From Flavobacteriales bacterium (lineage in GTDB: Bacteria; Bacteroidota; Bacteroidia; Flavobacteriales_F; PHOS-HE28): a stretch of DNA of 53,029 nucleotides. Under the pieces are notes generated by a model. The model was not told the DNA's origin. It did no database searches and saw nothing but the letters and a program-made list of their open reading frames with translations. A program made the translations under genes and the position numbers. The DNA is taken from contig JAEUSV010000115.1 of assembly GCA_016788485.1 (NCBI GenBank), positions 1 to 53,029 of the forward strand. The letters run 5' to 3'. This document shows positions 14,457 to 38,119 of the stretch, in pieces. Each line of letters opens with the position of its first letter. Position 1 is the first letter of the stretch.

Positions 14457-15206
14457 ATGGTCCTATACCGCATGGGCAACAAGCAGCGCATCGTCCACCG
14501 CATCCTGCCCTTCATTCCTCCGCATCAGCTCTGGATCGAACCGTTTTTCGGGACCGGGGCAATGCTGTGGGCCAAGCCACGCACGCGCTCCATCGTGAAT
14601 GACAGGGACAGTGAGGTATTCAATTTGTTCTGCGTGATCCAGGACCAGGAGCACGAGCTGCAGGATGCCTGGTGCGCGATGCCCATCCACGAGGACCTCT
14701 GGAAGCACTGGCGCCGGCATTGTCCGACCGACCCGGTGCAACGGGCGGTGCGCTTCCTCTTCCAGAGCAACTTCTCGTTCCTGGGCAAGGGTGGCACCCT
14801 GGTGTGGAACAGGAAGAACGCCAAGCGCCTGCTGCAGGACCGCATCAAGCAGACGCGCGAGCTGCTCTACGACGTGGAGTTCATGAACGTGGACTTCAGG
14901 TGCATGCTCGGGCGCATCCCGCTGTCCAAGGGTGATCGGCGCGGAGCTTTAATCTACTGCGACCCGCCCTATCTCGATACGGCTAACAACTACGGGATGG
15001 CCAGCGCGTGGAACGAGGGCGACACGCGCGACCTGTTGGCCATGCTCGCATCCAGCGGCATGCGATTCGCCATGTCCGAGTTCGACCACCCCACGGTCCT
15101 GAAGCTGGCCAAGGAGCATGGCCTGCAGGTGGTCACCATCGGCGACCGGCACAACCTGCGCAACCGGCGCACGGAGATCCTGGTGTGCGGAGGCTTTACG
15201 GCCTGA
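14457..15206 (+). CDS. Dam-type DNA adenine N6-methyltransferase (D12 class)
   Basis: Transfers a methyl group from S-adenosylmethionine to adenine in DNA. The 249 residues contain the class-alpha order: the SAM-binding motif IEPFFGTGAMLW near residue 26 preceded by GNK, NDRDSEVFNLF, a target-recognition region, then the catalytic IYCDPPYLD with Asp169-Pro-Pro-Tyr172. The C-terminus is complete. In a Mu-like phage it could protect DNA from restriction or tune promoters, as Mu's Mom and host Dam do. Target sequence is unknown. It lies in the middle operon ahead of the sigma-like factor. Confidence 0.9.
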   Translation: MVLYRMGNKQRIVHRILPFIPPHQLWIEPFFGTGAMLWAKPRTRSIVNDRDSEVFNLFCVIQDQEHELQDAWCAMPIHEDLWKHWRRHCPTDPVQRAVRFLFQSNFSFLGKGGTLVWNRKNAKRLLQDRIKQTRELLYDVEFMNVDFRCMLGRIPLSKGDRRGALIYCDPPYLDTANNYGMASAWNEGDTRDLLAMLASSGMRFAMSEFDHPTVLKLAKEHGLQVVTIGDRHNLRNRRTEILVCGGFTA

Positions 15207-17059: not shown

Positions 17060-17224
17060 ATGTCCGACAAGAAGCCGTCCCCTCCGCCGAAGCCTGCACC
17101 GAAGCCGCAACCGCCGCCTCCGGCACGACCATCACCTAGGCCGAACGTCCCCCTGCGGAGGGGTGACGAGGAGGGGCAGGCTAATGGTGGGGACAGGCCG
17201 GCACGACCGCCCCAAAGGAAGTGA
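17060..17224 (+). CDS. Proline-rich small protein
   Basis: 54 residues, about one third Pro and strongly basic (SPPPKPAPKPQPPPPARPSP). A GGAGG sequence lies 4 bp before the ATG, unusual here because most genes lack a Shine-Dalgarno sequence. Its 3' end overlaps the convergent membrane-protein gene by 44 bp. No family is recognised. Confidence 0.45.
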   Translation: MSDKKPSPPPKPAPKPQPPPPARPSPRPNVPLRRGDEEGQANGGDRPARPPQRK

Positions 17225-17681
17225 GGTTGAACACCAGCAGGAGCACCATGCCCACCAACATGGCCAACGTCGAAGCCAGGTTGAATCGGCGGGTCCATAT
17301 ACCAGCCAGGTGAGCGGCCGTGTCGTGGTCCTTCTGCTCCTGGGCCTCCTTGTCGTTCAGGCAAGCACCACCGAGGCGCTTGTGCTCGAACTGTGCCCAG
17401 CAGGCCTCGTGCTTGTTGGTGTAGTATCCGGCCCACTGGCTGGCGAAGTTCAACAGGGTGGCCAGCACGAAGCAGACCCCTCCCCATTCCAGCGTTGAAG
17501 GATTGAGCGCGATGCGCTGTTGCAGCATGAACTTCAGCGTCTCGAACACGATGTAGATGCCGGCGCCGGAGATGCTGATCACCAGCAGGTCGATGCGCTG
17601 GATGGCATAGAACTCGCGGGCCTTGGCATCGGCCAAGTGCATTTTGATCCGCTCCAGCTTGCCGGTGTCCTTGTCGCTCAT
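17181..17681 (-). CDS. Unknown membrane protein at the end of the packaging cassette
   Basis: 166 residues with three hydrophobic segments (about 30-50, 66-85 and 133-153). An N-terminal soluble helix comes first and a charged loop between the second and third segments (HEACWAQFEHKRL). It is the last gene of the minus-strand late operon, 14 bp after the tail-terminator-like gene. It could be a superinfection-exclusion or lysis accessory protein, but nothing identifies it. Confidence 0.65.
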   Translation of the reverse strand: MSDKDTGKLERIKMHLADAKAREFYAIQRIDLLVISISGAGIYIVFETLKFMLQQRIALNPSTLEWGGVCFVLATLLNFASQWAGYYTNKHEACWAQFEHKRLGGACLNDKEAQEQKDHDTAAHLAGIWTRRFNLASTLAMLVGMVLLLVFNLTSFGAVVPACPHH

Positions 17682-17695
17682 GTCCTAAAGGTCGG

Positions 17696-18265
17696 CTACG
17701 GAGCTGGAATTCGGAACAACGGCTGCGGGTCCGGTGCCGGCGCGGCCGCAGGCGGGGTCTGAGGCAGCTCCAGGGGCGGAGCATCCTCCTCCTGGTAGGT
17801 GGCCGTGGCCCCATAGTCGAGCATCACCGTTCGGTAGACCTGGTCGTACATCTGCACGTAGGCCTGGGTGTCCACGCGGCTGAGGGCCACACGGCTCATG
17901 GGGCCGAAGTGAGTGCCCTTGGCACCGTGCAGCGCGGCATGCAGCTGGCGCATCAGGCCGATGAAGGCGAGGGCGGCGGCCTGGTTGCCGCTGCCCTTGT
18001 GGGTGTCGCTGAGCGTCTCCCGGTAGAGCTTGACACCCACGTCCATGGTGATCAACTGCCGCCCTTCGGCCAGGTCCTCGATGCTCAGCGCGTTGAAGTC
18101 CAGGAACACCGCCGGCGCCGGGAAGGGGAGCCAGTTCCCGTCCTCGTCCACGGCCTGGTCCTGCCCCCAGTACAGGTCCACGTGCTTGATGGTCGGCACC
18201 TTGGTGGTGATCAGCGTGGCGATCTCCTGGTACGCCAGGCCCCAGTCCTGCAGGTCGTTGTTCAT
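17696..18265 (-). CDS. Putative tail terminator / neck protein
   Basis: 189 residues. A helical N-terminus (LAYQEIATLITTKVPTIKHVDLY) is followed by PAVFLDF, a strand-rich centre (QLITMDVGVKLYRET) and DTQAYVQMYDQVYRTVMLDYG. A Pro/Ala-rich tail ends it. The fold outline and its position next to the gpG-like gene match tail-terminator or Mu gp37-like proteins, but sequence recognition is weak. Confidence 0.5.
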   Translation of the reverse strand: MNNDLQDWGLAYQEIATLITTKVPTIKHVDLYWGQDQAVDEDGNWLPFPAPAVFLDFNALSIEDLAEGRQLITMDVGVKLYRETLSDTHKGSGNQAAALAFIGLMRQLHAALHGAKGTHFGPMSRVALSRVDTQAYVQMYDQVYRTVMLDYGATATYQEEDAPPLELPQTPPAAAPAPDPQPLFRIPAP

Positions 18266-18283
18266 GGCTTTAACAGGTGTTCA

Positions 18284-18826
18284 TCACCGGGTGTTCATCA
18301 CCTTGCCGATCTCGGTGAGGATGGTCTTGCGGAAGAGGATATTGAGGTCACGGCTCTGACCCATGAACTGGCGGCGCCGTAGGTGCAGGTTCATCCTGCG
18401 CTGGTGCCGGCCAACGGTTGCCTCCTTGCGCATCACGCGGCCGCGCCTGGTGCGCACCGGGCCGCCCCTGCGCGTGTGAGCCCTGATGGTGACCTGCCGG
18501 CGGAGCGTGATGCCTTCGTTGTGCGCCTGGGCATACGGCACTCCAGGCCCACCGGCTAGCACTTGTATGCCGTTCCAGCTGGCCCTACCAGCCCGGATGC
18601 TGTTCATCAGTGCCCCGGTCCGCTTGAGGACGCTGCCCTTGCGCAGCTTCTTGTTCTTGACCGGCGCCCACTTGCGCACCCCGCCATCCTGCCATCCCTG
18701 CGCCTTGAAGTTGCTGCGGAAGAATCGGATGGCGTCGGCCTGTACAAGTTTGGGTATGCGCTGGTCCAGCGCCTTCCTCAGGCGATCCACCTTGCGCTGC
18801 ACGTTGTCGAGTCCCCGGATAGGCAT
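18284..18826 (-). CDS. gpG-like virion morphogenesis protein
   Basis: 180 residues, very basic. It follows the phage virion-morphogenesis pattern: N-terminal helix, FFRSNFKAQGW, then R-K-W-x-P, a central LKRTGALMNSIRAG, PYAQAHNEG and a basic C-terminus. In Mu, gene G lies after F and works in head or tail completion. ATG 18826 is used; the frame extends further upstream only through a shadow of the portal gene. It follows the portal-head fusion gene by 62 bp. Confidence 0.8.
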   Translation of the reverse strand: MPIRGLDNVQRKVDRLRKALDQRIPKLVQADAIRFFRSNFKAQGWQDGGVRKWAPVKNKKLRKGSVLKRTGALMNSIRAGRASWNGIQVLAGGPGVPYAQAHNEGITLRRQVTIRAHTRRGGPVRTRRGRVMRKEATVGRHQRRMNLHLRRRQFMGQSRDLNILFRKTILTEIGKVMNTR

Positions 18827-18888
18827 TACCTTTGAAGTCGTTGATGCCCGTTGGCGTGTATGGTTCCGGCTCCTTTGGAGTTGCACCC

Positions 18889-21519
18889 TTAAGCGCTGCC
18901 GGGCATCTTCTTTACCAGCATGCCTGAGCGGATGCTGGTCTCGTCCGTCATCTCGTACCAGCCGGTCACCCTCATGGTCGGTACTCCGCCCTTGGGGGCT
19001 TTGGAGATGGAGGCCCTCACCACCATTGGCTTGTCCTGGTAGAACCGGATGAACGACAGCTCCGTGTTGTCGCCTCCTCGGCCCGTCATCCACACCTCGT
19101 CAGGCGCCTGTAGCACGTCCGGTATCAGGTTCGCCGTCGCGAAGCGCCTCTTTCCCTCGTACTTCGGCGTGGAGTGCTCTTCGATGGTGCGCTCTTCCAT
19201 CACCCAGGGCCGGCCCTTGTGGTCGTTGAACACGGCAACCCCGTCAGTATTGCGGACCGCTTCGAACCAGCGACGCATGCCCTCGTTGTCCTGGATGGTC
19301 TCGGGCGCCACAGGGAGGCCGCCACGCTTGTTGATGTCGGGCCAGTTCATGTCGCCCCGGTCGTAGCTGTCCTTCACCCCGAACTTCAGGTCGCGGCCAA
19401 GGACATCGCGGAACGAGCTATTGAGCCGGAACACCTCTCCGCTCACGGCGCGGTTCCCGTCGAAGCCCTGCTTCTTCATGCGGGCCAGTTCGCCTTTCAT
19501 CTTCTGCTTCACCCCATCCCATTGCTTGTTGGCCTCGTCCCCGGTAGGCCCTTCCTGCGTGGGGAGTACGGTGCACCTGCAGCGCCAGCCGTTGGGTGGC
19601 CAGATGGTTCGCCAGGCCGGATGGTTGAGCGGCCACATCTTGCCGTGCAGGTCGGCGTGAGCCTTCCGCACGGCGCTGTCCTCCATGGTGATGTATTCGC
19701 CGTTGGGCAGCACGTCGGCGCTCTGCTGCATATCGAACCAGCGCCCGGCTTGAATGCCAGTTAGTGTGACGTTGATGTACTCGGTGCGCAGCTGGGCCTC
19801 GTTGTAGTCCTTCAGCACCTGGCTCTGCTGCACACGGGCCTTGAACCGGCTGAAGCTCTCGCCCTCCTTCGCCATCGCGTTGATGTCCTGCGTGGCGGAC
19901 AAGGTCTTCAAGCCCGCGAAGCGGAACAGGTTGGCCTCCATCATGGCCCGCACCACATGGTCAGGAGCGTCGTACTGCAGGTTGCCGATGGCCGGCTTCC
20001 AAGCCTGGTCCAATGCCCGCATGTAGATGTCGGCCACTGCCTCGCTGTAGGCCTGGCTCCATGCCTTGCCGTCGTAGCCGGCACGGATCAGGGCATCAAG
20101 GGCTTCCTGATCCAGGTTCGGCGTTTCTTCGGCCGTGATGTCCTGGCTTCCGCCGCACACGCCGCACATCGGCACCTGTTTGCGTGGCCAGCTCGCGTTC
20201 ACACCATCGCCGTCCTCGTCCTCGGGATCCTCTTCGTTGGTGCCGGCGCCCTCGCCCTTCTTCTTACCGCTCTGCTTGCCGGTGCCGGCGACTTCGCCAG
20301 GCATACGCCGCGCACCCAGGATGCGGATGCCCGTGCGCTCGGCCACGAACTCCGGGTCGATGTCATAGACCGTGCCCAGCTTGGTCACGGCGTCAACCAG
20401 TTCGGTGCTGCTCATGTCACGGAACTCGTCCCAAGAGAAACGGACGCCGGCCAGCGGGTAGCCCAGCTTCACCAGACGGGGGAAGAGCTCGTTGTTGATC
20501 ACGTAGCCCACGCTGGCCTTGTCCGCCTGGTGACGGTCCTCGGCCACGCCCTGCAGCACCTTCAGCGAGCCGTAAGTGCCGCTGGCGTCCTTGTTGTCAC
20601 TGGTCCCATCCTGCCCAAGGACGCGCTTGCTCATCTCGCTGTTCATCCGCACGATGAGCTCGTCGAACACCTTGTGCGCGTCGGTGCCTGGGGTGGGCAT
20701 GATGTTGATCTCCTCGTCGCCCTGGATCACGGCGTAGGAACTGCTGATCATGCCCTGCATCACCGCTTCCAGTTGCTTCACCCGGTGCTTGTCCGTGGTG
20801 TTGGTCTTCACCCACCGGCCAGGGATGCCGAACTTCTCGGTGAAGTCGCTCCAAGAGCCGGACGCGTACTTCTTGATGATGGCCATGGGCGCCACCTGGC
20901 TCAGTATACCCAGCTCGTCCGGCCGGCCCACCTCCACCAGGTAGTCCACCAGGGGTGCCTCGCGGTAGGGATAACCCTTGTCCTCGCCCTGGCGCTTCAC
21001 CACATGGCCGGTCCAGGGCAGCACGTTGCGTGGGTCGATACGGTTCACCTGGCGCAGCTCTCCGGGCTTGGCAAGCTCGCCCAGCTCGATCAGGGTATGT
21101 CCCCGGAAAGTGGCCTCGGCCACGTACCGCAGGAAGTCCTCGAACCAACGGTGCTCCAACAGGGGCATCAGCTCGGGCTGGGCCTTGCCGCCCTTAGTGA
21201 GCTTGAACTTGCTACGAACCACCCGCAGCACCCGGCTCTCCATCACACTGGCCAGGTGGCTGTCGACCAGGATGCTGTCATAAAGGTCCAGCAGGCGGCT
21301 ACGGTCGGGCCGCAGCGGGTTCTGGGCCATGTTCAGAGCCATGATCCAGTCCTGCATGTCCACGCTCCGGTGAGGCATCTTCCAGGCCTCCAGGTCGGGC
21401 ATTCGGAAGCTGGGGGCTACCGGGGCGGAAGTGGCCTTGGCGAAAATCGCCGCTCTAATGCGTTGAAATAACCTCGGACGGGGTGCGGTGCCGGTCGGGA
21501 TCATATCGTTCAAGTTCAA
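18889..21519 (-). CDS. Portal protein / F-like head protein / PBECR nuclease domain fusion
   Basis: 876 residues. Residues 1-420 look like the Mu gp29 portal family (DUF935): LDLYDSILVDSHLASVMESRVLRV, FTEKFGIPGRW, then SWDEFRDMSSTELVDAV. An acidic linker (421-440) and CGVCGG (452-457) follow. Residues 480-655 match the Mu F-like minor head domain, ending in the typical NGWRCRC. Residues about 725-876 resemble the phage barnase-EndoU-ColicinE5/D-RelE (PBECR) nuclease fold (FNDHKGRPWVMEERTIEEHS, YEGKRRFATANLIPDVLQAPDEVW; GRGG). Mu encodes portal and F separately. The fusion gives one polypeptide for the dodecameric portal and the injected or internal head protein. Confidence 0.87.
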   Translation of the reverse strand: MNLNDMIPTGTAPRPRLFQRIRAAIFAKATSAPVAPSFRMPDLEAWKMPHRSVDMQDWIMALNMAQNPLRPDRSRLLDLYDSILVDSHLASVMESRVLRVVRSKFKLTKGGKAQPELMPLLEHRWFEDFLRYVAEATFRGHTLIELGELAKPGELRQVNRIDPRNVLPWTGHVVKRQGEDKGYPYREAPLVDYLVEVGRPDELGILSQVAPMAIIKKYASGSWSDFTEKFGIPGRWVKTNTTDKHRVKQLEAVMQGMISSSYAVIQGDEEINIMPTPGTDAHKVFDELIVRMNSEMSKRVLGQDGTSDNKDASGTYGSLKVLQGVAEDRHQADKASVGYVINNELFPRLVKLGYPLAGVRFSWDEFRDMSSTELVDAVTKLGTVYDIDPEFVAERTGIRILGARRMPGEVAGTGKQSGKKKGEGAGTNEEDPEDEDGDGVNASWPRKQVPMCGVCGGSQDITAEETPNLDQEALDALIRAGYDGKAWSQAYSEAVADIYMRALDQAWKPAIGNLQYDAPDHVVRAMMEANLFRFAGLKTLSATQDINAMAKEGESFSRFKARVQQSQVLKDYNEAQLRTEYINVTLTGIQAGRWFDMQQSADVLPNGEYITMEDSAVRKAHADLHGKMWPLNHPAWRTIWPPNGWRCRCTVLPTQEGPTGDEANKQWDGVKQKMKGELARMKKQGFDGNRAVSGEVFRLNSSFRDVLGRDLKFGVKDSYDRGDMNWPDINKRGGLPVAPETIQDNEGMRRWFEAVRNTDGVAVFNDHKGRPWVMEERTIEEHSTPKYEGKRRFATANLIPDVLQAPDEVWMTGRGGDNTELSFIRFYQDKPMVVRASISKAPKGGVPTMRVTGWYEMTDETSIRSGMLVKKMPGSA

Positions 21520-21551
21520 AGGAGTTAAACGGGGTCTAGGGGGTACTCCGG

Positions 21552-21983
21552 TCAGAAGTAGTGTCCGCCCATTGCCTTGCCACCGCCCACCCGGGGTACC
21601 ATGGCGCTTACCTCCGGGTCTGGGACTGCTGGTAAGTCCGGACTCTCCTTGCCCTCTGCCACCTTGTCCAGCCAGGCCAGGCTCTCGTCGTGGTCTTCCT
21701 TCACGGTCATGGGGATCTTCCGGGGATTGATCCGCCGGTACATCAGGTACACGAACACGTTCAGGGTGTGCAGCACCACAAGGGGGTTGCGGCTACCGGG
21801 GTCTGGCGTGGCAGGGAAGATGGCCGCCACGTCGTAACGGCCGCCCAGGGCGCTCTTCACCTTGGCGATGGCCATGCTCTCGCAGCTGAGCTCCACGGCC
21901 TCCACGTTGTCGGTGATGGCCGTCCGGTGCTCGTTACGGATACGGCTGTTGACGTCTTCGGCGGTGAGGAATGCGTAGGCCAT
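21552..21983 (-). CDS. Mu gp36-like head-tail connector (DUF1320-like)
   Basis: 143 residues. The opening MAYAFLTAEDVNSRI, AKVKSALGGRYDVAAIF and the later YLMYRRINPRKIP with a helical remainder match the DUF1320/gp36 pattern of Mu-like phages. These act as adaptor proteins below the portal. It is located between large terminase (3 bp) and the portal fusion (32 bp). Confidence 0.78.
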   Translation of the reverse strand: MAYAFLTAEDVNSRIRNEHRTAITDNVEAVELSCESMAIAKVKSALGGRYDVAAIFPATPDPGSRNPLVVLHTLNVFVYLMYRRINPRKIPMTVKEDHDESLAWLDKVAEGKESPDLPAVPDPEVSAMVPRVGGGKAMGGHYF

Positions 21984-21986
21984 GGG

Positions 21987-23519
21987 TTACCAGCTGCGTT
22001 TGGGGGCTTGGCGTTGACCGAACACGGGGGCGGCGAACTGTGAGGCGCGGACCTCCCGGCTCAACAGGGAGATGGCCCGTTCATCGGCGTCAGGGGCATC
22101 ATCGTGACCGCTGTAGCCTGGCTCGATGCCCTTGAGCTGGGCCAGCCCCACTTCGTGGTCGGCCTGTCCCGTGAGCTTGTCGCTGAACCATATGCGGCCA
22201 TTCTGGTAGAACGGGTGCAGGCTCAGGATGCGGTCGTACTTGTTGGCCTTGGACAGCTCAGCCTGGCTGATGCGCAGCTCGTGCCCTTCGGCGGTACACA
22301 CCTCCTGGATGGTCCGCTCGAGCTCGGCATTCCAGAACTGCGACTCGTACTGCCAGTGCACCACCACGGTCTCGGGCAGGTGCCGGTCGTAGTCCACCAT
22401 CCAACGCACGGCATCGGCCATCTTGCTCTGCTTGCAGTAGGTGGCCAGCAGCCAGAAGCGGCGCTCCTTGTCCACGCCCCACACCCGAACGGCGTTGTAG
22501 TCGGCGCTGCTCGTTCCTGCGTAGGCCACATCCCAATGCGCGATGATGCGCACCAGGTGGTTCATGGCCGGAGGTCGGCCAACGTTGAACAGGTCGTCGG
22601 TGAAGATGGTGCCCTCCACGTGGGGCTCGTGGAGGTACTCGGCGTGGACGGCGAGCTTGCCGTTCTCGCTCTCCAGCTCACGCCAGTAGTCGGCGGTGTA
22701 CTTCTGCGGCCACACCGGCTCATAGGTGACCTTGTCGTACGCCTTCACTTCATCCAGGTGCCACTTCGGGTGCTTCTTGAGGAGCTTGCGCTGGATCATC
22801 TCCGGTGCGAAGCCGTTGTTGGCGATCAGCAGCCGGCGGAAGGGGCCGTCCATGGTGCCCAGCAGGTCCTGTTCGACCCAGCGCACCATCTCCCATTGCC
22901 GCTTCTCGTTCTTCACCAGCTCCTTCGTCTCACAGTCGTCCACCACGACCAGCGTGGGGCGCTGGGAGCGGTGGCGGAGGCCGCGTACGCTCTGGCCAAT
23001 GCCCAGGCCCTGGCCGATGAATCCCCCCTTGGTGATGAAACGCCCGTCCTCCCAACTGCCCTGCATCTTCTGGTCGCCGAAGTCGTGCAGGAGCCTTGGA
23101 TTCGCTTCGAACTCGGCTTGCGCATCGCTGAGCAGCACCTTGGCCTTATCGAAGCTGGCGCCCACGATCACCAGGTACATGGGTTCCCCCCGTGCCCACA
23201 GCCACAGCGGCAGGATCACGTTGCACCACACGCTCTTGGCATGGCCTCGTGGCCATCGCGCCACGGTCTTGATCACCTGGTCGCGCGAGACCCGCTTGGC
23301 GAAGCGCACCTGGAACTCGGCGCTCGGGCTGCTGCAGTAGTGCGAGAGGTAGGTCTCGGCGAAGACCCTCGGGTCCGCCTTGGCCTGGTCGATGCGGGCC
23401 TGTTGCTCAGCCTTGCTCTCGCGGGGGTTGAACGTGCCGCTCTGGCGCACCACCTCCAGTCGGCGCTTGTACTGCTCGATCAGGCGCTGGGCCCACTTGC
23501 TGTCCTTGCGCTTGCTCAT
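21987..23519 (-). CDS. Terminase large subunit
   Basis: DNA-packaging ATPase and nuclease acting at the portal. 510 residues. Walker A is RWPRGHAKS (88-96), Walker B is TLVVVDDCE with Asp194-Asp195, and the coupling segment is ANNGF (about 233-237). The RNase-H-like nuclease carries Asp330 (AHWDVAYAG) and a later acidic DDAPDADE near residue 480. The start overlaps the small-subunit stop by 4 bp. This is the Mu gp28-like type by context. Confidence 0.93.
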   Translation of the reverse strand: MSKRKDSKWAQRLIEQYKRRLEVVRQSGTFNPRESKAEQQARIDQAKADPRVFAETYLSHYCSSPSAEFQVRFAKRVSRDQVIKTVARWPRGHAKSVWCNVILPLWLWARGEPMYLVIVGASFDKAKVLLSDAQAEFEANPRLLHDFGDQKMQGSWEDGRFITKGGFIGQGLGIGQSVRGLRHRSQRPTLVVVDDCETKELVKNEKRQWEMVRWVEQDLLGTMDGPFRRLLIANNGFAPEMIQRKLLKKHPKWHLDEVKAYDKVTYEPVWPQKYTADYWRELESENGKLAVHAEYLHEPHVEGTIFTDDLFNVGRPPAMNHLVRIIAHWDVAYAGTSSADYNAVRVWGVDKERRFWLLATYCKQSKMADAVRWMVDYDRHLPETVVVHWQYESQFWNAELERTIQEVCTAEGHELRISQAELSKANKYDRILSLHPFYQNGRIWFSDKLTGQADHEVGLAQLKGIEPGYSGHDDAPDADERAISLLSREVRASQFAAPVFGQRQAPKRSW

Positions 23520-23977
23520 GCGTAGAGCCTGGCGGCCTTCTCAAGTAGGCTTTCCTGGAAGTCCAGCAGCTGGCGGTAGATGTCAGGGTGGGCGCCCTGG
23601 AGCTCCTCGAAGACCCATTCCATCGTGCGCACGCGCACACTGAGCGTGATGTCGTTCTCCCCGCGTGCCACATCGAGCGCCTTGGTCGCCTTGCTGAGCG
23701 CATCGTACGCCTTGGCCTTCACGCCGGGGTCGGCCTTGGGGTCGTTGTCCAAGTCAAGGCACTCCTGGGCCTTGCGCTGAACCAGTTCCTTGAGCGTTCG
23801 CACCACGTTCTCCTGCCGACCGATGTGTTCGGCACGCAGCTCCTCCCAGTTGCCATCGCTGGCCCAGTCGCCGACGGTCTTCTCGCGTACGCCTACGAGC
23901 GCAGCGATGTCGCGTCGGCTCTTGCCGTGCTCCACGAACATCACGCGGGCCGCCTTCTTCTGCTCTGTCTTGGCCAT
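23516..23977 (-). CDS. Terminase small subunit
   Basis: 153 residues from ATG 23977. An N-terminal HTH of the kind seen in Mu gp27/DUF1804-like small terminases is clear: HGKSRRDIAALVGVREKTVGDW, then ASDGNWEELRA. The rest is helical and probably oligomerises. It is the first gene of the minus-strand late operon and divergent from the head-protease gene, with 125 bp between starts. It binds phage DNA at pac according to family knowledge. Confidence 0.8.
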   Translation of the reverse strand: MAKTEQKKAARVMFVEHGKSRRDIAALVGVREKTVGDWASDGNWEELRAEHIGRQENVVRTLKELVQRKAQECLDLDNDPKADPGVKAKAYDALSKATKALDVARGENDITLSVRVRTMEWVFEELQGAHPDIYRQLLDFQESLLEKAARLYA

Positions 23978-24022
23978 GAGACAAAAGTGGCCGGGCAGGG
24001 GGTCGCGCGCGCGCAATTTCCT

Positions 24023-24054: not shown

Positions 24055-24082
24055 CAACGTTATTTGGCGCGGCTTTCCGGCG

Positions 24083-24099
24083 CTTGGACTTTTGGCGCC
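24083..24099 (+). promoter_or_regulatory. Promoter-like element, copy 3
   Basis: CTTGGACTTTTGGCGCC, 3 bp before the protease ATG, with TTTGGCGCGG at 24063-24072 exactly as in the 13.97-kb copy. If this is the -7 region, the late head transcript would be leaderless or nearly so. Role inferred. Confidence 0.4.
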
Positions 24100-24102
24100 G
24101 CA

Positions 24103-25233
24103 ATGCCACGGAAGCGCTTCCTCAACATCGTTGCAACGGCCTCGAACGGCCGTGCCGAGGTCCGTATCGAGGGCGACATCGCTGGCTGGAAGGACAGCGC
24201 CGCCACCTTCCGGGCGCAGATGCAGGCCCTGGTCGCCGAGGGCGTGCGCGATGCGCACGTGTACCTCAACACGCGGGGCGGCAGCGTCTTCGAGGCCAAC
24301 GACATCGTCAACGAGATCAAGCGTTTTCCCGGTCGCGTGACCGGTGAGGGCGGGGCCTTGGTCGCCAGCGCAGGCACCAACATCATGCTTCACCTGCAGG
24401 ACTTCGCCATGCCGTCCAACGGCATGCTGATGATCCACAAGGGCATGGGCATGGTGGAGGGCAATGAGGACCAGATGGCCAGCTACCTGGACCTGCTCAA
24501 GAAGCTGACCCAGCAGTACCGTGAGGCCTACGCCAAGAAGATGGGCATCACCGAGGCCCAGGTGGAGGAGATGTGGGGCAAGAGCGACAAGTGGTTCACG
24601 GCGCAGGAGGCACTGGATGCCAAGCTGATCAGCCGCATCACCGACGCCACGGACATCAGCGAAGAGGAGGTGCAGGACATCGCCGCCTGCGGCGCTCCAA
24701 TGGACAAGCTACCCAAAGCGGCCCCAGCCGCACCAACAACGACCACCATGAAGATCGAAGAACTGCGTGCCGCTTTGGGCATGCCGGAGACCGCCACCGA
24801 ACAGGAGGTGCTTGCCAAGGCCAAGGAACTCCGCATGGCGAACGAGGCCAGCGCCAAGGCCGCTGCCGATGCGCGGAAGAACGAGGTGAAGTCGCTGATC
24901 GATGCGGCCGTGAAGGAGCGCAAGATCACCGAGGAGCACCGCTCGAGCTTCGAGGCCAAGTTCTCCGCCGACTTCGAAGCCACCAAGCGTGAGCTCGAAG
25001 GCCTGAAGGCGGTGCCGCAGATGGCCGCCGTGTTGGACGCCGGCAAAGCGGCCGGTGCGGCTGCCACGGTCATCGCCGGCCGCGATGCTTGGACCTACGA
25101 TGAGTGGGCCACCAAGGACGAGAAGGGTCTGCTGGCCATGGCCAACGGCAATGCCGAGGCCCAAGCCCGGTTCCAGGCCCTGTACGAGGCCAAGTACGGA
25201 CGCAAGGCGGAGCTGCCCGCCCCCAAGGCCTAA
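24103..25233 (+). CDS. ClpP-like prohead protease with C-terminal scaffold domain
   Basis: 376 residues from ATG 24103. The N-terminal 200 residues have a ClpP/S14 fold: NTRGGSVFEANDI, Ser89 in LVASAGTNI and His112 in LMIHKG; an Asp near 174 (EALDAKL) may complete the triad. The remainder (about 215-376) is Ala/Lys/Glu-rich and helical, typical of capsid scaffolds. In Mu, protease I carries the nested scaffold Z; here an in-frame ATG at 24748 (MKIEELRAALG) could start the scaffold alone. The gene leads the rightward head operon. Confidence 0.87.
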   Translation: MPRKRFLNIVATASNGRAEVRIEGDIAGWKDSAATFRAQMQALVAEGVRDAHVYLNTRGGSVFEANDIVNEIKRFPGRVTGEGGALVASAGTNIMLHLQDFAMPSNGMLMIHKGMGMVEGNEDQMASYLDLLKKLTQQYREAYAKKMGITEAQVEEMWGKSDKWFTAQEALDAKLISRITDATDISEEEVQDIAACGAPMDKLPKAAPAAPTTTTMKIEELRAALGMPETATEQEVLAKAKELRMANEASAKAAADARKNEVKSLIDAAVKERKITEEHRSSFEAKFSADFEATKRELEGLKAVPQMAAVLDAGKAAGAAATVIAGRDAWTYDEWATKDEKGLLAMANGNAEAQARFQALYEAKYGRKAELPAPKA

Positions 25234-25295
25234 GCGTCTGCAGCATCCACGAGCAACACGAGCACAAACCCGAGAGATCGACACCCGATAGAGCC

Positions 25296-26357
25296 ATGAA
25301 GCACATCCTCTACATCCTCACCAGCCTGGTCTTCGCCCTCATCGCTGGCGCCACCTTCGGCATGACCACCGGCGCGGACGTCCACACCAGTATGGCCGGG
25401 GCCGTTGGCCTCTCCATGGGCCTGAGCGTGGCCGCCAGCTTCGCGCCCGCCAGCACCTTCAACGGCTTGGGTGCCGTGATGCTCAAGCAGATGTGGGAGA
25501 CCGAGATGCTCAACGCGTTCCGAAGCTCGGGCAACTGGATGCAGGCCATTCCGCGCAAGGACCAGTACGTGGGCAACAACGTGATCAACCTCACGGAGAT
25601 CGGTGCTGACCCCACGCTGCTGATCAACAACACCTCGTACCCCATCGCAACGGCCGCCCGCGTGGATGACAACGTGGCGCTCGCGCTGAACAAGTACGAC
25701 ACCACCAACACCAAGGTGACGCGCGACGAGATGCAGGCGCTGCCCTACGACAAGGTGGACAGCGTGATCCGCCAACACAAGGACGTGATCCTGGAGGGCA
25801 CGCGCAAGCACGGGCTGTGGAACCTGGCCATCGCTGGCGACAGCGCCACCACCCCGCTGGTGGAGACCACGGGCGCCGACAACGGGTCCAGCCGCAAGGC
25901 CATCCGTACGGCGGACATCCTGAAGCTCAAGCTCCGCTTGGACAACCTCTTCGCCCCCGAGGAGGGCCGCAGCCTGGTGATGTGCTCCGCACACATCAAT
26001 GAGCTCCTCCTGGAGGACCAGAGTTTCAACCTGCGGTACCAGAACCACACCGAGGGCAAGATGATCACCCGCTACCACGGGTTCGACATCTACGAGGATA
26101 AGTACAACCCGGTGTACACGGCCGCCAACGCGAAGAAGGCCTTCGGGGCCGCCGCCGCCGGCACGGACCGCAACGCCTCGGTGTGCTTCATCGCCGGTCG
26201 CTCCTTCCAGGCCACCGGCACCCTGGAGATGTTCTACCGGGACAAGGCGAACGACCCGGAGAACCGCGAGACCGTGGTGGGCTTCCAGCTCTACCACATC
26301 ATCGCCCCGAAGAAGACCACCGCCTTCGGCGTGATCGTGAGCGACGACCTGGCCTAA
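25296..26357 (+). CDS. Major capsid protein
   Basis: 353 residues, HK97-like in plan. The core reads LKQMWETEMLNAFRSSGNWM, DQYVGNNVINL, GADPTLLINNTSYPI and LALNKYDTTNTKVTRDE, a pattern of Bacteroidota phage capsids. Unusually, the first 55 residues are strongly hydrophobic (MKHILYILTSLVFALIAGATFG and a second segment at about 33-50), looking like two membrane helices. This leader is probably removed by the preceding protease or directs prohead assembly to the membrane. It follows the protease-scaffold gene by 62 bp. Confidence 0.85.
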   Translation: MKHILYILTSLVFALIAGATFGMTTGADVHTSMAGAVGLSMGLSVAASFAPASTFNGLGAVMLKQMWETEMLNAFRSSGNWMQAIPRKDQYVGNNVINLTEIGADPTLLINNTSYPIATAARVDDNVALALNKYDTTNTKVTRDEMQALPYDKVDSVIRQHKDVILEGTRKHGLWNLAIAGDSATTPLVETTGADNGSSRKAIRTADILKLKLRLDNLFAPEEGRSLVMCSAHINELLLEDQSFNLRYQNHTEGKMITRYHGFDIYEDKYNPVYTAANAKKAFGAAAAGTDRNASVCFIAGRSFQATGTLEMFYRDKANDPENRETVVGFQLYHIIAPKKTTAFGVIVSDDLA

Positions 26358-26418
26358 GCCTGGTCGCCACACCCCTGATCTGACACACTGGTTCACGTAA
26401 GGACAACCACACGAAACG

Positions 26419-27765
26419 ATGCGCGAGCTGAAGCGATACAAGGAGGAAGCAGTGGTGCTGCTGCTCGGTACCCTTCTGTTCCTGGCCGTCCGCTGGCTGT
26501 CCATCCACTACTGGAGCACCCCGGACATCGCCGGAGATGCCCCGAACCAGTACGACATGCGCAGTGAGACCGAGACGATCCTCTGGACCATCCTGCGGAT
26601 GTTCGTCTACACGCTCGCCAGCTGGATCGGTCTGCGCATCATCATGCCGGCCGGCTACAAGTGGCTCCGCCATGACGTCGTGGACAACCTGGGCGCCCTG
26701 AGCCCGGAACAGCGCACCAACCTCACCACGCGCATGTGGGCCATCCTCTTCTTCGGCCTGGTGCTGCTGGCCATGAGCGGCTGCGCCCCGGCACACGGGG
26801 CCACCACGCGGCAGTGCGTGGTGGCCAGCGCCACCGCTGACGTGGGGGTGCGCGAGGCGACGGGCCGCAACGACGGCCCGGCCGTTGAGCGTTACCTCGC
26901 CCACGTGGGCCATAAGGCCGGTGCCAGCTGGTGCGCCGCCTTCGTCTGCTACCACCTCTCCCAGTGCGGCGTGGCGAACCCGCGCAGCGCCTGGAGTCCG
27001 GCACTCGCTTCGGTTGGGGACAGGGTGTGGACGGCTCGCAAGGCCGTTCGCGCCCCCCAACCGGGGGATGTCTTCACCCTCTACTACCCGCAGCTGGGCC
27101 GGGTCGGCCATGCTGGCATCGTCACCGGCACGGACGGCCGGTACCTCTTGACCGTGGAGGGCAACACGAGCGGTCCAGGGAGCCGCGAAGGCGATGGCGT
27201 CTACGCCCGCCGGCGCGAGCTGCGCAAGGTCTATGCTGTCACCAACTACATCGCCGATGCGAACCCTGCTACCGCTGCTGCTCCTGGTCGTACTACCGGC
27301 GTGCAAGCAACTGCGCACCACCACCGATACGCACACCACCGAGCGCACCGAGCGCAGCTCAACGGTGGTGCCACGAGATACTTTGTTGCAGGTCCCCGGC
27401 GGCCAGGCGCACCTGTCGGTGCCGCTGCCGCCGCCGGGGCAGGACCTGTCCCCGCGAACGGAGCGCAACGGTCGGGCCTGGGTGAGCGTGAGCTCACAGG
27501 CTGGCCGGCTGGTGGCTACCGGTGGCTGCGACACCACGGCCATAGCGGCCCGGCTATGGGACCGGTTCACCAGGGAGCACCAGGTGAAGGAAGTGGAGCG
27601 CACGGTACAGCAGACCGTCGAGCGCAAGGTGGTGCCGTGGTATGCGTGGGTCAGTATCGGCGTCAGCGCCACGATGCTGGCGGCCGTGCTGATCGGCATC
27701 CTCGCCCTCGTGGTGCGCAAGCGCTGGACCCTTTCCTGGTAACCCCCAACCCCTGCCTTCAATGA
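26419..27765 (+). CDS. Holin-like plus CHAP endolysin fusion (3' part overlaps the spanin gene)
   Basis: 448-codon open frame. Residues 1-105 have two membrane helices (about 11-27, 54-76) and look holin-like. M106 starts a third helix ending in a lipobox (LLAMSGC121). A CHAP/NlpC-type peptidase follows at about 135-280 with Cys172 (ASWCAAFV) and His231 (RVGHAGIV). The lysin domain ends near residue 280 (TNYIADAN). The last 165 codons are low-complexity and entirely overlap a spanin gene in the +1 frame, so they may be a shadow or a lost stop. ATG 26734 (M106) could make a separate lipoprotein-like or SAR-type lysin. Confidence 0.8.
   Translation: MRELKRYKEEAVVLLLGTLLFLAVRWLSIHYWSTPDIAGDAPNQYDMRSETETILWTILRMFVYTLASWIGLRIIMPAGYKWLRHDVVDNLGALSPEQRTNLTTRMWAILFFGLVLLAMSGCAPAHGATTRQCVVASATADVGVREATGRNDGPAVERYLAHVGHKAGASWCAAFVCYHLSQCGVANPRSAWSPALASVGDRVWTARKAVRAPQPGDVFTLYYPQLGRVGHAGIVTGTDGRYLLTVEGNTSGPGSREGDGVYARRRELRKVYAVTNYIADANPATAAAPGRTTGVQATAHHHRYAHHRAHRAQLNGGATRYFVAGPRRPGAPVGAAAAAGAGPVPANGAQRSGLGERELTGWPAGGYRWLRHHGHSGPAMGPVHQGAPGEGSGAHGTADRRAQGGAVVCVGQYRRQRHDAGGRADRHPRPRGAQALDPFLVTPNPCLQ
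27257..27742 (+). CDS. Unimolecular spanin-like lysis protein
   Basis: 161 residues from ATG 27257. A signal peptide with lipobox (VVLPAC, Cys16) targets the N-terminus to the outer membrane. A Pro-rich periplasmic stretch follows, then a helical segment (about 95-125). A C-terminal membrane helix (about 129-153) ends in RKRW. A lipoprotein N-terminus with a C-terminal inner-membrane anchor is the layout of u-spanins such as T1 gp11, which fuse the two membranes in lysis. It is fully nested in another frame of the lysin open frame. Confidence 0.77.
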   Translation: MRTLLPLLLLVVLPACKQLRTTTDTHTTERTERSSTVVPRDTLLQVPGGQAHLSVPLPPPGQDLSPRTERNGRAWVSVSSQAGRLVATGGCDTTAIAARLWDRFTREHQVKEVERTVQQTVERKVVPWYAWVSIGVSATMLAAVLIGILALVVRKRWTLSW

Positions 27766-28274
27766 GCAGCATCCCCAAGAAACTCCTCGCTGCGGCCGAG
27801 GATGCACTGACGCGGTATCCCAACGCGCCCTTCGTGACGGTGACCGAGGATGGCAACGCCTGGCTTCCCGGCAATGCCAGCCTGGCCGAGCACCATGCCC
27901 GCCAGGAGCGCCTCCCGAAACCGGTGACCGTGACCCGCGCCGATGTCGGCCTGGAGCCCGTGGTGATCGGTGCCGAGCCCGTGACCACCCCCGCGAAGGG
28001 CAGCGATGAAGAGCCCCCCGTGAACGAGGCTGAAGGGTCTGAAGCAGCCACCAGCGCTGAAGAGGCCACCGTCGAACACGGCACGCCACGTGGCGCTGAC
28101 CTCCTGGGTGACGTGGTGTCCCTGGGCAAGAAGAAGGAGGTCGAGAGCACCGTCGTGGTGCAGCGCTCTTTCGTGGACAGCGGGCTGACCATGCAGGAAT
28201 GGAACAGCCTGGATGACGACGCCATCCTGGAGCACCTCTTCGAGACCATCGAAGCCCTGAAGAAGGAGGCCTGA
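27762..28274 (+). CDS. Unknown virion-region protein
   Basis: 170 residues. An N-terminal folded part (PNAPFVTVTEDGNAWLPGNASL) is followed by an acidic, Ala/Glu-rich disordered stretch and a helical C-terminus (DDDAILEHLFETIEALKKEA). It sits between the lysis genes and the sheath, where Mu has the small gp35-gp38 genes. No family recognised. Its start overlaps the end of the lysin open frame in ATGA. Confidence 0.65.
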   Translation: MSSIPKKLLAAAEDALTRYPNAPFVTVTEDGNAWLPGNASLAEHHARQERLPKPVTVTRADVGLEPVVIGAEPVTTPAKGSDEEPPVNEAEGSEAATSAEEATVEHGTPRGADLLGDVVSLGKKKEVESTVVVQRSFVDSGLTMQEWNSLDDDAILEHLFETIEALKKEA

Positions 28275-28326
28275 TCGCCCCCAAGACCCAGTTCAACAGC
28301 CCTTCAACCCCCGTTAGACACGCACC

Positions 28327-29592
28327 ATGAGCTTCCGTGGACCCAGCATCCTCAAAGTGAACGGCGGCCTCGGCCAGCAGGCGCCGAGCGACCGCAATGT
28401 CGCAGGGTTGATCATCGCCTCCGGTTACGAGGCCGGCGACTTCACCTTCGGGGTCCACACCTTCAACAGCCTGGAGGAGGCAGAGGAGCTGGGGCTCAGC
28501 GCCAGCACGGACGCCAATGCCACTGTGGGGGCGTTGACCTGGTATCACATCAGCGAGTTCTTCCGGTTGAACCCCGACGGTAAGCTGTACGTGTTCAACG
28601 GCGACGGCCTGGACATGTACGCTGCCTTCGACCCGGCAAGCGCCGCAGACCAGCTGATGACGGCCAGCTCCAACAACATCCGCTTCATCGGCCTGGTGGC
28701 CGGCTTCCCGCTGACGGGTACGCTCGCGCTCGCCAACGGCTACTTCGATGGGGTGAAGCCTGCCGCCGATGCCGCCCAGGCTTGGGTGGATGACCGCCGT
28801 GCGAACGACGTCTACATCGACGTGGTGGTGCTCGAAGGTGTGCAGTGCCAGACCGCCACGGTCGAGGACCTGAAGACCTGGGAGCTTCCCCAGGTGGCCG
28901 TGGTGGCCATGTGCGACCAGGGCTACCTCAACGGTTACGCGGCCAACTTCCGCAAGAGCGCCGCTGTGGGCACCGCCCTTGGCAGCATCGGTGTGCGCAT
29001 GCTGAGCGAGAGCATCGGCAGCGTGGACATCGCCACCAAGCCGGGTGACCGGCGCGGTGAGCAGAACTACTCCCTCACCAGTACGCGGCAGAACCGCTGG
29101 GTGAGCGGGTTGTCCATCAGCAGCAACGTCCTCTTCGATGCACTGACACAGGCGAAGAAGACCGAGCTGACCAACAAGGGTGTCATCTACGCCGGAGCCT
29201 ACGCGGGCTACGAGGGCGTGTACCTGAACGGTGACCCCACCGCCGCCCTGGTGACCGATGACTTCAACAGCATCAACGCCAACCGGGTGTGGAACGAGTG
29301 CGCCCGTCGCATCCGCCGCGCCCTGATCCCGCGTATGAACAGCCGCGTGCTGATCGACCCGGCAACGGGCCGCATCAAGGCCAGCACCATCGCCGAATGG
29401 GATGCCGCTGCCAAGCGCGAGCTGGAGGCCCTGCTCGGCGAGGGCGAGATCGCTGACTTCCGCTTCACCATGGATCCCAACCAGGACGTGGTGGCTCAGG
29501 GCAAGGTGATCACCCGCCTGCGCATCGTGAAGCAAGGCATCGCCAAAGCCATCGAGGCCGAGATCGGCTTCACCAACCCCGCCCAAGCCTAA
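28327..29592 (+). CDS. Contractile tail sheath protein (DUF2586-like)
   Basis: 421 residues. The start GPSILKVNGGLG, a long alpha/beta centre and the C-terminal segment (RRIRRALIPRMNSRVLIDPATGRI ... ITRLRIVKQGIAKAIEAEIGF) match the sheath plan, in which a C-terminal domain with a final strand interlocks neighbours. It is followed directly by the tube protein, the standard order. Sheath contraction drives the tube through the cell envelope. Confidence 0.87.
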   Translation: MSFRGPSILKVNGGLGQQAPSDRNVAGLIIASGYEAGDFTFGVHTFNSLEEAEELGLSASTDANATVGALTWYHISEFFRLNPDGKLYVFNGDGLDMYAAFDPASAADQLMTASSNNIRFIGLVAGFPLTGTLALANGYFDGVKPAADAAQAWVDDRRANDVYIDVVVLEGVQCQTATVEDLKTWELPQVAVVAMCDQGYLNGYAANFRKSAAVGTALGSIGVRMLSESIGSVDIATKPGDRRGEQNYSLTSTRQNRWVSGLSISSNVLFDALTQAKKTELTNKGVIYAGAYAGYEGVYLNGDPTAALVTDDFNSINANRVWNECARRIRRALIPRMNSRVLIDPATGRIKASTIAEWDAAAKRELEALLGEGEIADFRFTMDPNQDVVAQGKVITRLRIVKQGIAKAIEAEIGFTNPAQA

Positions 29593-29595
29593 GCC

Positions 29596-30030
29596 ATGGC
29601 ACAGACCAACCTCATCAACAAGTTCGGCCGCGTCAGCGGGTGGAACGATGTTCAGCTCGTTCTCTTCGGCCGTACCGTCGAAGGCATCCAGGAGTTCTCC
29701 TACGACGACAACCAGGAGAAGGAGGCCATCAAGGGCCAAGGCGGCATGCCCATTGGCATGGGGCGCGGCAACTACGAGGCCAAGTGCAGCATCACGATCC
29801 TCATGGAGGAGTTCCATGGCCTGCTGAAGAGCCTGCCCGCTGGCAAGCGTCTCCAAGAGGTCCTGCCGACCGACGTCCCTGTTCTGTACATGCAGGGCGA
29901 GGAGGTAGTGAAGGACGTGATCCGCGGCTTCGAGTTCACCGGTGCCACCAAGGAGCTCAAGCAGGGCGACAAGGCCGTCTGGGTGAAGCTCGGCGTGGTC
30001 TGCACCCACATCGACTGGTTGGTGCAGTAG
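29596..30030 (+). CDS. Tail tube protein
   Basis: 144 residues, 3 bp after the sheath stop. Strand-rich with FSYDDNQEKEAIKGQGGMPIGMGRG, a loop typical of tube proteins, and a C-terminal beta segment (AVWVKLGVVCTHIDWL). Hexamers stack inside the sheath. Size and location agree with Mu gpM-like tubes. Confidence 0.85.
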   Translation: MAQTNLINKFGRVSGWNDVQLVLFGRTVEGIQEFSYDDNQEKEAIKGQGGMPIGMGRGNYEAKCSITILMEEFHGLLKSLPAGKRLQEVLPTDVPVLYMQGEEVVKDVIRGFEFTGATKELKQGDKAVWVKLGVVCTHIDWLVQ

Positions 30031-30064
30031 GCACCGCTCTTCCCAAGATCCACACCCCCGACCG

Positions 30065-30415
30065 ATGAACGACCGCAAACTGCCGAAAGGCACCACCGAT
30101 GAGCAGCTCAAGGCGCTCATCGCCAAGCATGTGACGGTGCACCCCATCACCGTGACCAAGGATGGGCAGTCCTACACCGCGCTGCTCAAGAAGCCGACCA
30201 TCGCCGTGATGGCCGCAGCGACCGTGGCCTCTCAGGCCACCCCTGGGGCCATCGACGTGTACAAGATGGGCCAGGTCATCTACCGCAGCTGCATGCTGGT
30301 CGCCGACCCGGAGATCGACCTGGACGAGGAGCTGCTCGCCGGCGCCATGCTGAAGGCCAGCCAACTCTTCAAAGCAGCCCAGGCCGAGCTGGGGGAACCG
30401 TACGTCGCCGGGTAA
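30065..30415 (+). CDS. Tail assembly chaperone, upstream frame
   Basis: 116 residues. Helical protein (TTDEQLKALIAKHVTVHPI, ELLAGAMLKASQLFKAAQAEL) between tube and tape measure, the invariant place of the G/GT-type chaperone pair. Near its end, GGGGGAA (30391-30397) would allow a -1 shift into an open frame that continues to 30603. A short product and a longer fusion are both expected. Confidence 0.78.
   Translation: MNDRKLPKGTTDEQLKALIAKHVTVHPITVTKDGQSYTALLKKPTIAVMAAATVASQATPGAIDVYKMGQVIYRSCMLVADPEIDLDEELLAGAMLKASQLFKAAQAELGEPYVAG
30391..30397 (+). promoter_or_regulatory. Putative -1 ribosomal frameshift site
   Basis: G-GGG-GAA, read as GGG-GAA in the zero frame and GGG-GGA after slipping. 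It lies 16 bp before the zero-frame stop codon. It resembles the lambda G/GT site (G-GGA-AAG) in location, not in exact sequence. Confidence 0.55.
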
Positions 30416-30603
30416 TCGATCCCGACCCGGAGGCGGACCAGCTGCGCAAGGGCGCGGCCATGATCAGAAGCGAGTTCGGGATCGAACCCTTTGAGCTGTC
30501 GAACGAGCAGTTCGCCGAGCTCTGGACCGAAGCCGCGTGGCTGGACCAGCACCGCACCTTGATGCTGGCGAGGGCGCTCGGCTTCAATGCTGAGATGAGC
30601 TGA
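30391..30603 (+). CDS. Tail assembly chaperone, -1 frame extension
   Basis: From the slippery G-GGG-GAA the -1 frame reads about 70 codons without stop (TVRRRVIDPDPEADQLRKG ... IRSEFGIEPFELSNEQFAELW ... LARALGFNAEMS). An in-frame ATG at 30460 also exists and could start a separate 47-residue protein. The sequence looks like the short T-domain of frameshifted chaperones. The TGA at 30601-30603 overlaps the tape-measure ATG. Confidence 0.68.
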   Translation, partial: GGTVRRRVIDPDPEADQLRKGAAMIRSEFGIEPFELSNEQFAELWTEAAWLDQHRTLMLARALGFNAEMS

Positions 30604-32711: not shown

Positions 32712-33394
32712 GCCAATTCCAGCCCACAGCTTCCGACCAAGGGACGCCGGTGAACACCGCGCCACGTTTCAACGTTCCATCGGCGCTCGCGCTGCTCTAT
32801 GGTGTGGTGAACCCCGTGAGCTACCCTGGGGTGGTCGCCGAAGCCCAGGCGCGGAACCCGGAGGTGAGCTACATGGGCATCACCTTGGTGGAGGACGACG
32901 AGCAGCGGCCCTTGAGCCCCATCGGTACGCCGGTGTTCTACCCCGTCACGCTGAAGGGGGGCGAGTACAAGCGACACGACCGCCAGGGCAAGGTGGAGAC
33001 CGTACGGATGCCGGAGCTGCGCCTGCCGATCACCACGGTGGTGGAGATGAGCTGCAGCAAGACCATCACCAAGACACCGGTGGTGGCCGCTGCGGCCAGC
33101 GTGAAGGAGGTGTACGCCATCGACGACTGGAGCATCACGATCAGCGGCATCCTTTGGGACGAGGCGAACCAGCCCCAGGGCGCCACAACGCTCGAGGCGA
33201 TGCAGGAGCGCATCATGGACTGGTTCCGGCTGGCCGACAGCATCGAGGTGGACGGCGAGCTCTTCCACCAGCGCGGCATCTTCCGCATCGTGCTCAAGGA
33301 CATCTCCTTCAACCAGATGCCCGGCAAGCGTCGGCTTCATGGATTTCAGATGAGCGCGGAGAGCGATGACCCACTTGAGTTGATCCTTCAATGA
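32708..33394 (+). CDS. DUF6046-like tail/baseplate protein
   Basis: 228 residues, overlapping the tape-measure stop by 4 bp. Motifs such as ELRLPITTVVEMSCSKTITKTPV, YAIDDWSITISGILWDE and ALF-like DGELFHQRGIFRIVLKDI resemble a family found after the tape measure in Bacteroidota phages. It probably bridges the tape measure and the hub (role of Mu gp43). The exact family name is from memory and moderate. Confidence 0.6.
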   Translation: MSQFQPTASDQGTPVNTAPRFNVPSALALLYGVVNPVSYPGVVAEAQARNPEVSYMGITLVEDDEQRPLSPIGTPVFYPVTLKGGEYKRHDRQGKVETVRMPELRLPITTVVEMSCSKTITKTPVVAAAASVKEVYAIDDWSITISGILWDEANQPQGATTLEAMQERIMDWFRLADSIEVDGELFHQRGIFRIVLKDISFNQMPGKRRLHGFQMSAESDDPLELILQ

Positions 33395-33621
33395 CCGAGC
33401 ATACCGATATCACTTACAAGGCAGGCGTGGCCCTGGTCACCGGTGCAGCCAGCGTGATCAGCTTCCTCTTCACCGGAGACGTGCTGCAGGCCGTGCTCGT
33501 AGGTGCCGTTGGCGGCCTGGTCGCGGGCTTCACGCGCGGCCTCGGACAGCACGCCTGGCGCAAGCTGGCCAAGCGGCTGAAGCTCGAACACCATCACGAC
33601 GAAGACCCCAAGAAGCAGTGA
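33391..33621 (+). CDS. Small membrane protein
   Basis: 76 residues with two hydrophobic segments (about 11-28 and 33-49) and a basic, His-rich C-terminus (KLEHHHDEDPKKQ). Overlaps both neighbours (ATGA upstream; its TGA overlaps a GTG start downstream). The function is unknown. A holin-like or assembly role is possible. Confidence 0.6.
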   Translation: MTEHTDITYKAGVALVTGAASVISFLFTGDVLQAVLVGAVGGLVAGFTRGLGQHAWRKLAKRLKLEHHHDEDPKKQ

Positions 33622-38117: not shown

Positions 38118-38119
38118 TC

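Follow-up and report, generated by a model that had tools for sequence, protein, structure and literature searches.

The portal-MuF-PBECR2 chain and its prophage

The window, i.e., the whole stretch of DNA analysed here (53,029 nucleotides of contig JAEUSV010000115.1), comes from a Flavobacteriales bacterium assembly of 3.58 Mb in 168 contigs (GCA_016788485.1). On its minus strand, positions 18889-21519 form a single uninterrupted frame of 876 codons with no internal stop, which encodes an 876-amino-acid chain comprising a Mu-type portal domain, a linker, a MuF minor-head domain and a PBECR2 nuclease-like domain, in that order. The start of the chain is uncertain: reading in frame from the preceding stop, the first possible start codon is the TTG at 21519, with an ATG five codons on.

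All three Pfam domains exceed the curated cut-offs. The portal domain (residues 77-398; 20326-21291, minus strand) covers the whole Portal_Mu profile (PF06074; 1-336 of 336, E 1.8e-63) and was located at the same place in genome G000; a profile built from 31 fused proteins matches the solved portal proteins 9khx and 8rka. The MuF domain (residues 551-651; 19567-19869, minus strand) matches Phage_Mu_F (PF04233; E 1.2e-13, 52.2 bits versus a cut-off of 29.6) and TIGR01641, the SPP1 gp7 domain, which is the sole NCBIfam match of the chain (46.3 bits versus 39.65). The PBECR2 domain (residues 757-876; 18892-19251, minus strand) was delimited with Pfam (PF18810 at residues 757-840; E 9e-9, 36.0 bits versus 27.1) and the structure model described below. 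By profile, the chain belongs to the Mu-type portals, the MuF/SPP1 gp7 minor head proteins and the PBECR clade. Furthermore, residues 49-676 are covered by a single PHROG family of unknown function (35074), and so chains comprising both portal and MuF domains exist in known phages.

In the AlphaFold2 model of the full-length chain (31 fused relatives), residues 402-460 (20140-20316, minus strand) have pLDDT values below 50 and lie between well-modelled portal and MuF domains, as expected of a disordered linker; with a pTM of 0.49, this model does not give the placement of the domains relative to each other. The linker harbours the acidic stretch EEDPEDEDGDG (residues 429-439; 20203-20235, minus strand). 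Hence, the preliminary description of this DNA, made without database searches, was right in proposing that a portal, a minor head protein and a PBECR-type domain are joined in one 876-residue chain, and that the portal-F junction passes through an acidic linker.

The fused gene sits in a Mu-like prophage of a Flavobacteriales-type host, in which profile searches identified, in order, a Mu-type transposase (4750-6897, plus strand; phrog_310, E 1.2e-36), an AAA protein, a DUF3164 protein and a minus-strand head block. This block consists of a DUF1804-type small terminase subunit (23516-24016; E 1.8e-8), the large terminase subunit (21987-23519; phrog_38, E 1.2e-58), a gp36-like head-tail adaptor (21552-21983; Phage_Mu_Gp36, E 5.9e-8), the fused chain, a gpG-like neck or tail completion protein (18284-18826, with an ATG at 18826; phrog_26, E 9.9e-14 on 18284-18838) and a phrog_6911 protein. 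The location of the fused gene between the gp36 adaptor and gpG, within the terminase block, is in line with a head-protein role. The plus-strand part encodes a Clp-type prohead protease, whose gene is separate from that of the fused chain (24064-25233; CLP_protease, E 6.7e-16), the major head protein, the sheath, the tape measure and the fibre proteins. The terminase-portal block (17696-24016, minus strand) thus runs opposite to the capsid and tail genes (24064-40396, plus strand), and both this orientation and the order of the block are common to Porphyromonas, Winogradskyella and Bacteroides phages and, for the first part of the block, to Flavobacterium fF4.

The minus-strand block ends with an ORF of 166 amino acids (17181-17681), which shows hydrophobic stretches by eye and for which searches of Pfam, PHROGs and PADLOC returned nothing. 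A D12-class adenine methyltransferase is also encoded inside the prophage (14457-15206, plus strand; Pfam E 1.6e-15). PADLOC returned no match to known defence systems for four proteins of the head block, and we dropped the idea of a link to such a system.

The fusion recurs in Bacteroidota and alternates with the two-gene form

The preliminary description had contrasted the fused chain with the separate portal and F genes of Mu and most of its relatives. Separate genes do occur in Mu (NC_000929), where the portal gp29 and its MuF partner gp30 are two chains from neighbouring genes (gp29 ends at 16092 and gp30 begins at 16073), as well as in fF4, Peternella and Bacteroides phages, which would be the reason to suspect that an assembly or frameshift error had joined two genes in the window. 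We regard such an error as practically excluded, the same fusion being shared by five genomes of the same genus, by isolates and by phage records from Porphyromonas. Among the 44 same-genus genomes other than the window's own, five (G004, G007, G037, G042 and G044) encode the complete three-domain chain as a single frame, and G041 has the portal and MuF in one frame with a different C-terminus. The matches in G016 are weak and fragmentary, lie in two short ORFs of 75 and 331 amino acids and may represent a decayed copy, and neither a fused chain nor pieces of it were found in the remaining 37.

Two scans with conserved portal patterns returned 134 loci (80 viral, the best 80 of the 233 loci of the first scan, and 54 genomic), a sampling from which the viral and genomic frequencies are not unbiased, and in which L104-L107 and L116 are the same genomes as G042, G044, G004, G007 and G041. 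The portal, MuF and PBECR domains are held in one frame in 38 of these loci, and 11 others are fused with no PBECR match; the portal and MuF lie in separate frames in 78 (one of them with PBECR), and seven are partial. A viral scan with the single pattern P0001 confirmed nothing. The set comprises isolate genomes as well as phage records, and the full fusion occurs in the named isolates Phocaeicola massiliensis, Prevotella falsenii and Alkaliflexus imshenetskii, whereas all Pseudomonadota loci in the two scans keep the two-gene form. The fusion is thus common in the Bacteroidota relatives, not exceptional as had been thought.

On a maximum-likelihood tree of the 87 portal domains left after partial portals were dropped (43 fused, 44 separate), 10 changes are required to explain the fused state (bootstrap range 9-10; mean of about 29 after shuffling), at least eight of which are forced by well-supported branches; the tree does not give the direction of these changes (fusion or fission), it contains long branches that join each other (L091 and L099), and a sequencing error may underlie some of the split rows. 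The chain of the window falls in a clade of eight fused sequences with full support, beside a clade that is mostly split (10 of 11). From this alternation, the tethered and free forms of MuF look interchangeable.

C-terminal domains differ between chains and are probably swapped

Comparisons of same-genus chains revealed a mosaic. L015 and L017 are 90% identical in the portal and 44% in MuF. L017 and L018 share 90% of the portal and 87% of MuF, and their identity falls to 55% in the spacer and 29% in PBECR2. L015 and L016 are more similar in MuF (82%) than in the portal (74%). These identities point to exchange of modules at the linker and ahead of the effector domain; fast divergence of the C-terminus is a less probable alternative.

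In the relatives, the slot after MuF is occupied by Gln_amidase, CdiA_C, LPD3 or zincin-like stretches, or by nothing recognised. The Gln_amidase (glutamine-deamidase) C-terminus was observed in Bacteroides BKO1-TP4. In L019:5523-8318 (minus strand; G041, the same as L116), the portal and MuF are followed by an HExxH (zincin-like) motif and a weak LPD1 match, below cut-off, in place of PBECR2. Seven other fused portal-MuF chains (L122, L123, L129, L062, L096, L097 and L085) have 146-286 residues after MuF with no confident Pfam match, the weak ones being LPD3, below cut-off, in L123 and CdiA_C (E 0.053) in L122 only. It is possible that these seven C-termini are new effector domains.

We also considered that a free MuF-PBECR protein could be made from an internal start, and rejected it by eye: among the six same-genus chains, L015 has a leucine for the methionine of RRMPGE at the linker edge, and the alignment of the six showed no further shared methionine ahead of the MuF core.

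The PBECR2 domain of the window appears to have lost a conserved residue

PBECR domains are predicted RNases in the accessible text of Iyer et al. 2017 (PMC5512222). We aligned 38 distinct PBECR2 domains (35 from fused chains, three separate), after removal of exact duplicates and of domains cut by locus ends. The predicted catalytic histidine is present in the window (His782; 19174-19176, minus strand) and in 30 of the 38 domains, the window included; in four further relatives it is shifted by one position, as judged by eye from the alignment rows. The PDEVW and R..G.L motifs are also kept in the window. At the C-terminal strand position preceding W/F, a threonine occurs in 26 domains and a serine in 11, and the window alone has a glycine (Gly853; 18961-18963, minus strand), directly preceded by Thr852. 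As the conserved Ser/Thr is replaced, the PBECR2 domain of the window is predicted to be weak or dead, the alternative being a sequencing error at the Gly853 codon, while those of most relatives look catalytically competent. The active nuclease put forward in the preliminary description is thereby weakened for this copy only. As a separate observation, the PBECR2 domain of L018:6774-9647 (minus strand; G007) has a lysine for the conserved histidine, and its nearest relative L017 (90% identical portal) keeps both His and Ser.

We then looked at the fold. The C-terminal 222 residues (655-876), modelled alone, gave a mean pLDDT of 84.0, with helices at 776-804, four long strands at 808-856 and a short strand at 867-870. 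Against the PDB, Foldseek found nothing at E 0.001 or better for this model, the best rows being ketosteroid isomerases with TM scores of about 0.2. Re-alignment of the Foldseek candidates ranked a toxin-antitoxin chain from Salmonella highest (Z 5.7), ahead of two chains of CDI toxins (Z 4.3) and an archaeal RelE (Z 3.9), all in a range (3.9-5.7) that the tool calls uninformative and that may reflect only a common arrangement. Against BFVD, two rows reached E 0.001 or better, 'PolyVal ADP-ribosyltransferase' and 'Minor capsid protein', with low TM scores over the query (0.39 and 0.33, respectively). The C-terminal sequence profile gave a single, meaningless match (E 0.91) among solved structures. 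Together, the fold evidence for a nuclease-like C-terminus is consistent but thin. The earlier notion of a nuclease-like fold is supported by PBECR2 and the re-aligned toxins, though that of an extra domain is not: Mu gp30 itself matches MuF_C weakly (E 3.6e-4; 21.0 bits, the cut-off being 27.6), and hence such a C-terminal domain is no addition to MuF proteins.

Fused PBECR2 genes are rarely followed by an immunity-sized ORF

In 37 distinct fused PBECR2 loci, among them that of the window, the PBECR2 gene is followed on its own strand by a gpG homologue, which is no more than 300 nt away in 35 of them, these gaps running to the first profile-aligned residue rather than the start codon (the long gaps are 2121 in L072 and 885 in L114). 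A same-strand ORF of 50-150 amino acids precedes gpG in only five of the 37 loci, and none occurs between the PBECR2 gene and gpG in the other 32, the window among them. According to the accessible text of Jamet et al. 2017 (PMC5576092), a small ORF follows 89.4% of the MuF toxin genes (n = 191) and 25.5% of the short ones (n = 952). Since a small ORF rarely follows them, the fused PBECR2 genes resemble in this respect the non-toxin MuF genes, and the absence of an immunity ORF argues against an antibacterial toxin that has to be neutralised in the producer. Of the features of MuF polymorphic toxins, the window has a MuF domain followed by a C-terminal domain in a temperate phage and lacks the downstream immunity ORF; an active toxin of this type with an adjoining immunity gene is thus unsupported.

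Comparison with known systems

The portal-MuF-PBECR architecture is already known in print, being among the simplest PBECR arrangements presented by Iyer et al. 2017 (PMC5512222, accessible text), and a reading of it as a novel arrangement is therefore unsupported. Their fusions have the same three domains, and the copy of the window differs from them in lacking the conserved Ser/Thr. The Porphyromonas gingivalis phages, such as BK068094, similarly encode one chain (853 amino acids, annotated 'portal') comprising Portal_Mu, Phage_Mu_F and PBECR2, which is 29% identical to that of the window and keeps the conserved threonine. The modest additions made here, which we did not find in the accessible text of Iyer et al., are the recurrent fusion/fission, the intragenic swapping of modules, the absence of immunity ORFs and the lone Gly853. 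Our literature search, from which subscription papers were mostly absent, returned no paper in which the cleavage of a portal-MuF-PBECR chain, or the number of its copies, had been measured.

The MuF toxins (PMC5576092) and Bxa of Bacteroides stercoris (PMC11699363) are described, in the sections available, as likewise combining MuF with a variable C-terminal effector in a prophage packaging module; in contrast to them, the MuF of the window forms one chain with the portal, and its gene lacks a downstream immunity ORF. In Microbacterium phages of the clusters EA3, EA5, EA8 and EB, the portal and MuF also occur in one gene, but these phages are siphoviruses of Actinobacteria, and the accessible text makes no mention of PBECR for their fusions (PMC7302621). 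In SPP1, similarly to Mu, the portal gp6 and its MuF partner gp7 are separate chains from neighbouring genes (PMC6316719). From the available text of the same source, gp7 binds the portal, thereby reaches the procapsid interior in few copies and aids infection, and virions lacking it are only about 25% infectious; one to two copies are given in that of PMC5576092.

Proposed role of the chain

From the above, we propose, with rather more confidence than doubt, that the chain is a virion head protein of the Mu-like prophage, in which MuF and PBECR2 are tethered to the portal and the catalysis of PBECR2 is probably lost or weak. The N-terminal part would form the portal ring, and MuF, a separate portal-binding protein in other phages, would be held to it by the flexible acidic linker, so that the fusion would do covalently what the binding of gp7 does in SPP1. 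Such tethering would put PBECR2 at the portal vertex, probably on the interior of the head, with one copy per portal subunit if no cleavage removes it. The domain of the relatives is most probably, as our best guess after Iyer et al., an RNase of early infection, which would be carried into the newly infected cell, or become exposed to it, and cut host or defence RNA; delivery together with the DNA, as suggested in the preliminary description, agrees with published thinking on MuF proteins. In the window, where catalysis is probably lost or weak, the domain may serve in RNA or DNA binding or have a structural role, as has been suggested for Mu gp30, whose C-terminal domain is an inactive PBECR domain in the available text of Iyer et al. 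(PMC5512222). Against this proposal stand the number of SPP1 gp7 copies, one to two, which a 12-copy fusion would not match, the thin fold evidence for a nuclease, and the neighbouring Thr852, which might replace the missing residue in catalysis.

The closest contender, which we consider somewhat improbable, is a purely structural or assembly protein, whose C-terminus would aid head assembly, DNA packaging or a pilot function as a relic of nuclease ancestry. The missing catalytic Ser/Thr of the window, the missing histidine of G007, the degenerate version in Mu gp30 and the lack of an immunity gene are all compatible with it; yet most relatives keep both His and Ser/Thr, which a relic would not need, and the C-terminus evolves more quickly than the portal and, unlike it, is exchanged between chains, a behaviour typical of effectors. 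A further reading, which we find unlikely, is that PBECR2 is an active RNase in the phage of the window too, injected with the DNA as an early-infection effector with Thr852 as the substitute. It draws on His782, on the PDEVW and R..G.L motifs and on the four relatives with a histidine one column over, in that small register shifts may be tolerated, so that Thr852 might stand in for the missing residue. Adjacent residues of a strand normally face opposite sides, and for this reason Thr852 would need a bulge; moreover, the Ser/Thr is kept in 37 of the 38 domains. Still harder to sustain, and in our opinion quite improbable, is a MuF polymorphic toxin directed against competing bacteria, with its immunity protein encoded elsewhere. 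MuF is indeed combined with swappable C-termini in the relatives (CdiA_C, Gln_amidase, zincin-like), and Bxa and Apk2 are MuF-linked toxins that can be antibacterial, but the 32 loci with no immunity-sized ORF, the window among them, and the loss of the conserved Ser/Thr in the window speak against it.

Extending the proposed head-protein role to the relatives, we tentatively suggest, as a possibility that we hold to be less probable than that role itself, that the portal repeatedly captured MuF in Bacteroidota Mu-like phages as a fixed dock, with a swappable C-terminal effector domain on every portal subunit, the linker and the MuF-effector spacer being the points of exchange; in the window, the RNase would be dead and reused, for instance in RNA binding or in filling the portal crown. 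The fusion bears on whether MuF-linked effectors are carried in the virion, and in how many copies: it would cap the copy number of the effector at that of the portal ring, and an effector on the portal chain should be visible by cryo-EM with imposed symmetry, making its location and processing directly testable, with the natural pairs of fused and split chains, and of domains with and without the Ser/Thr, as controls.
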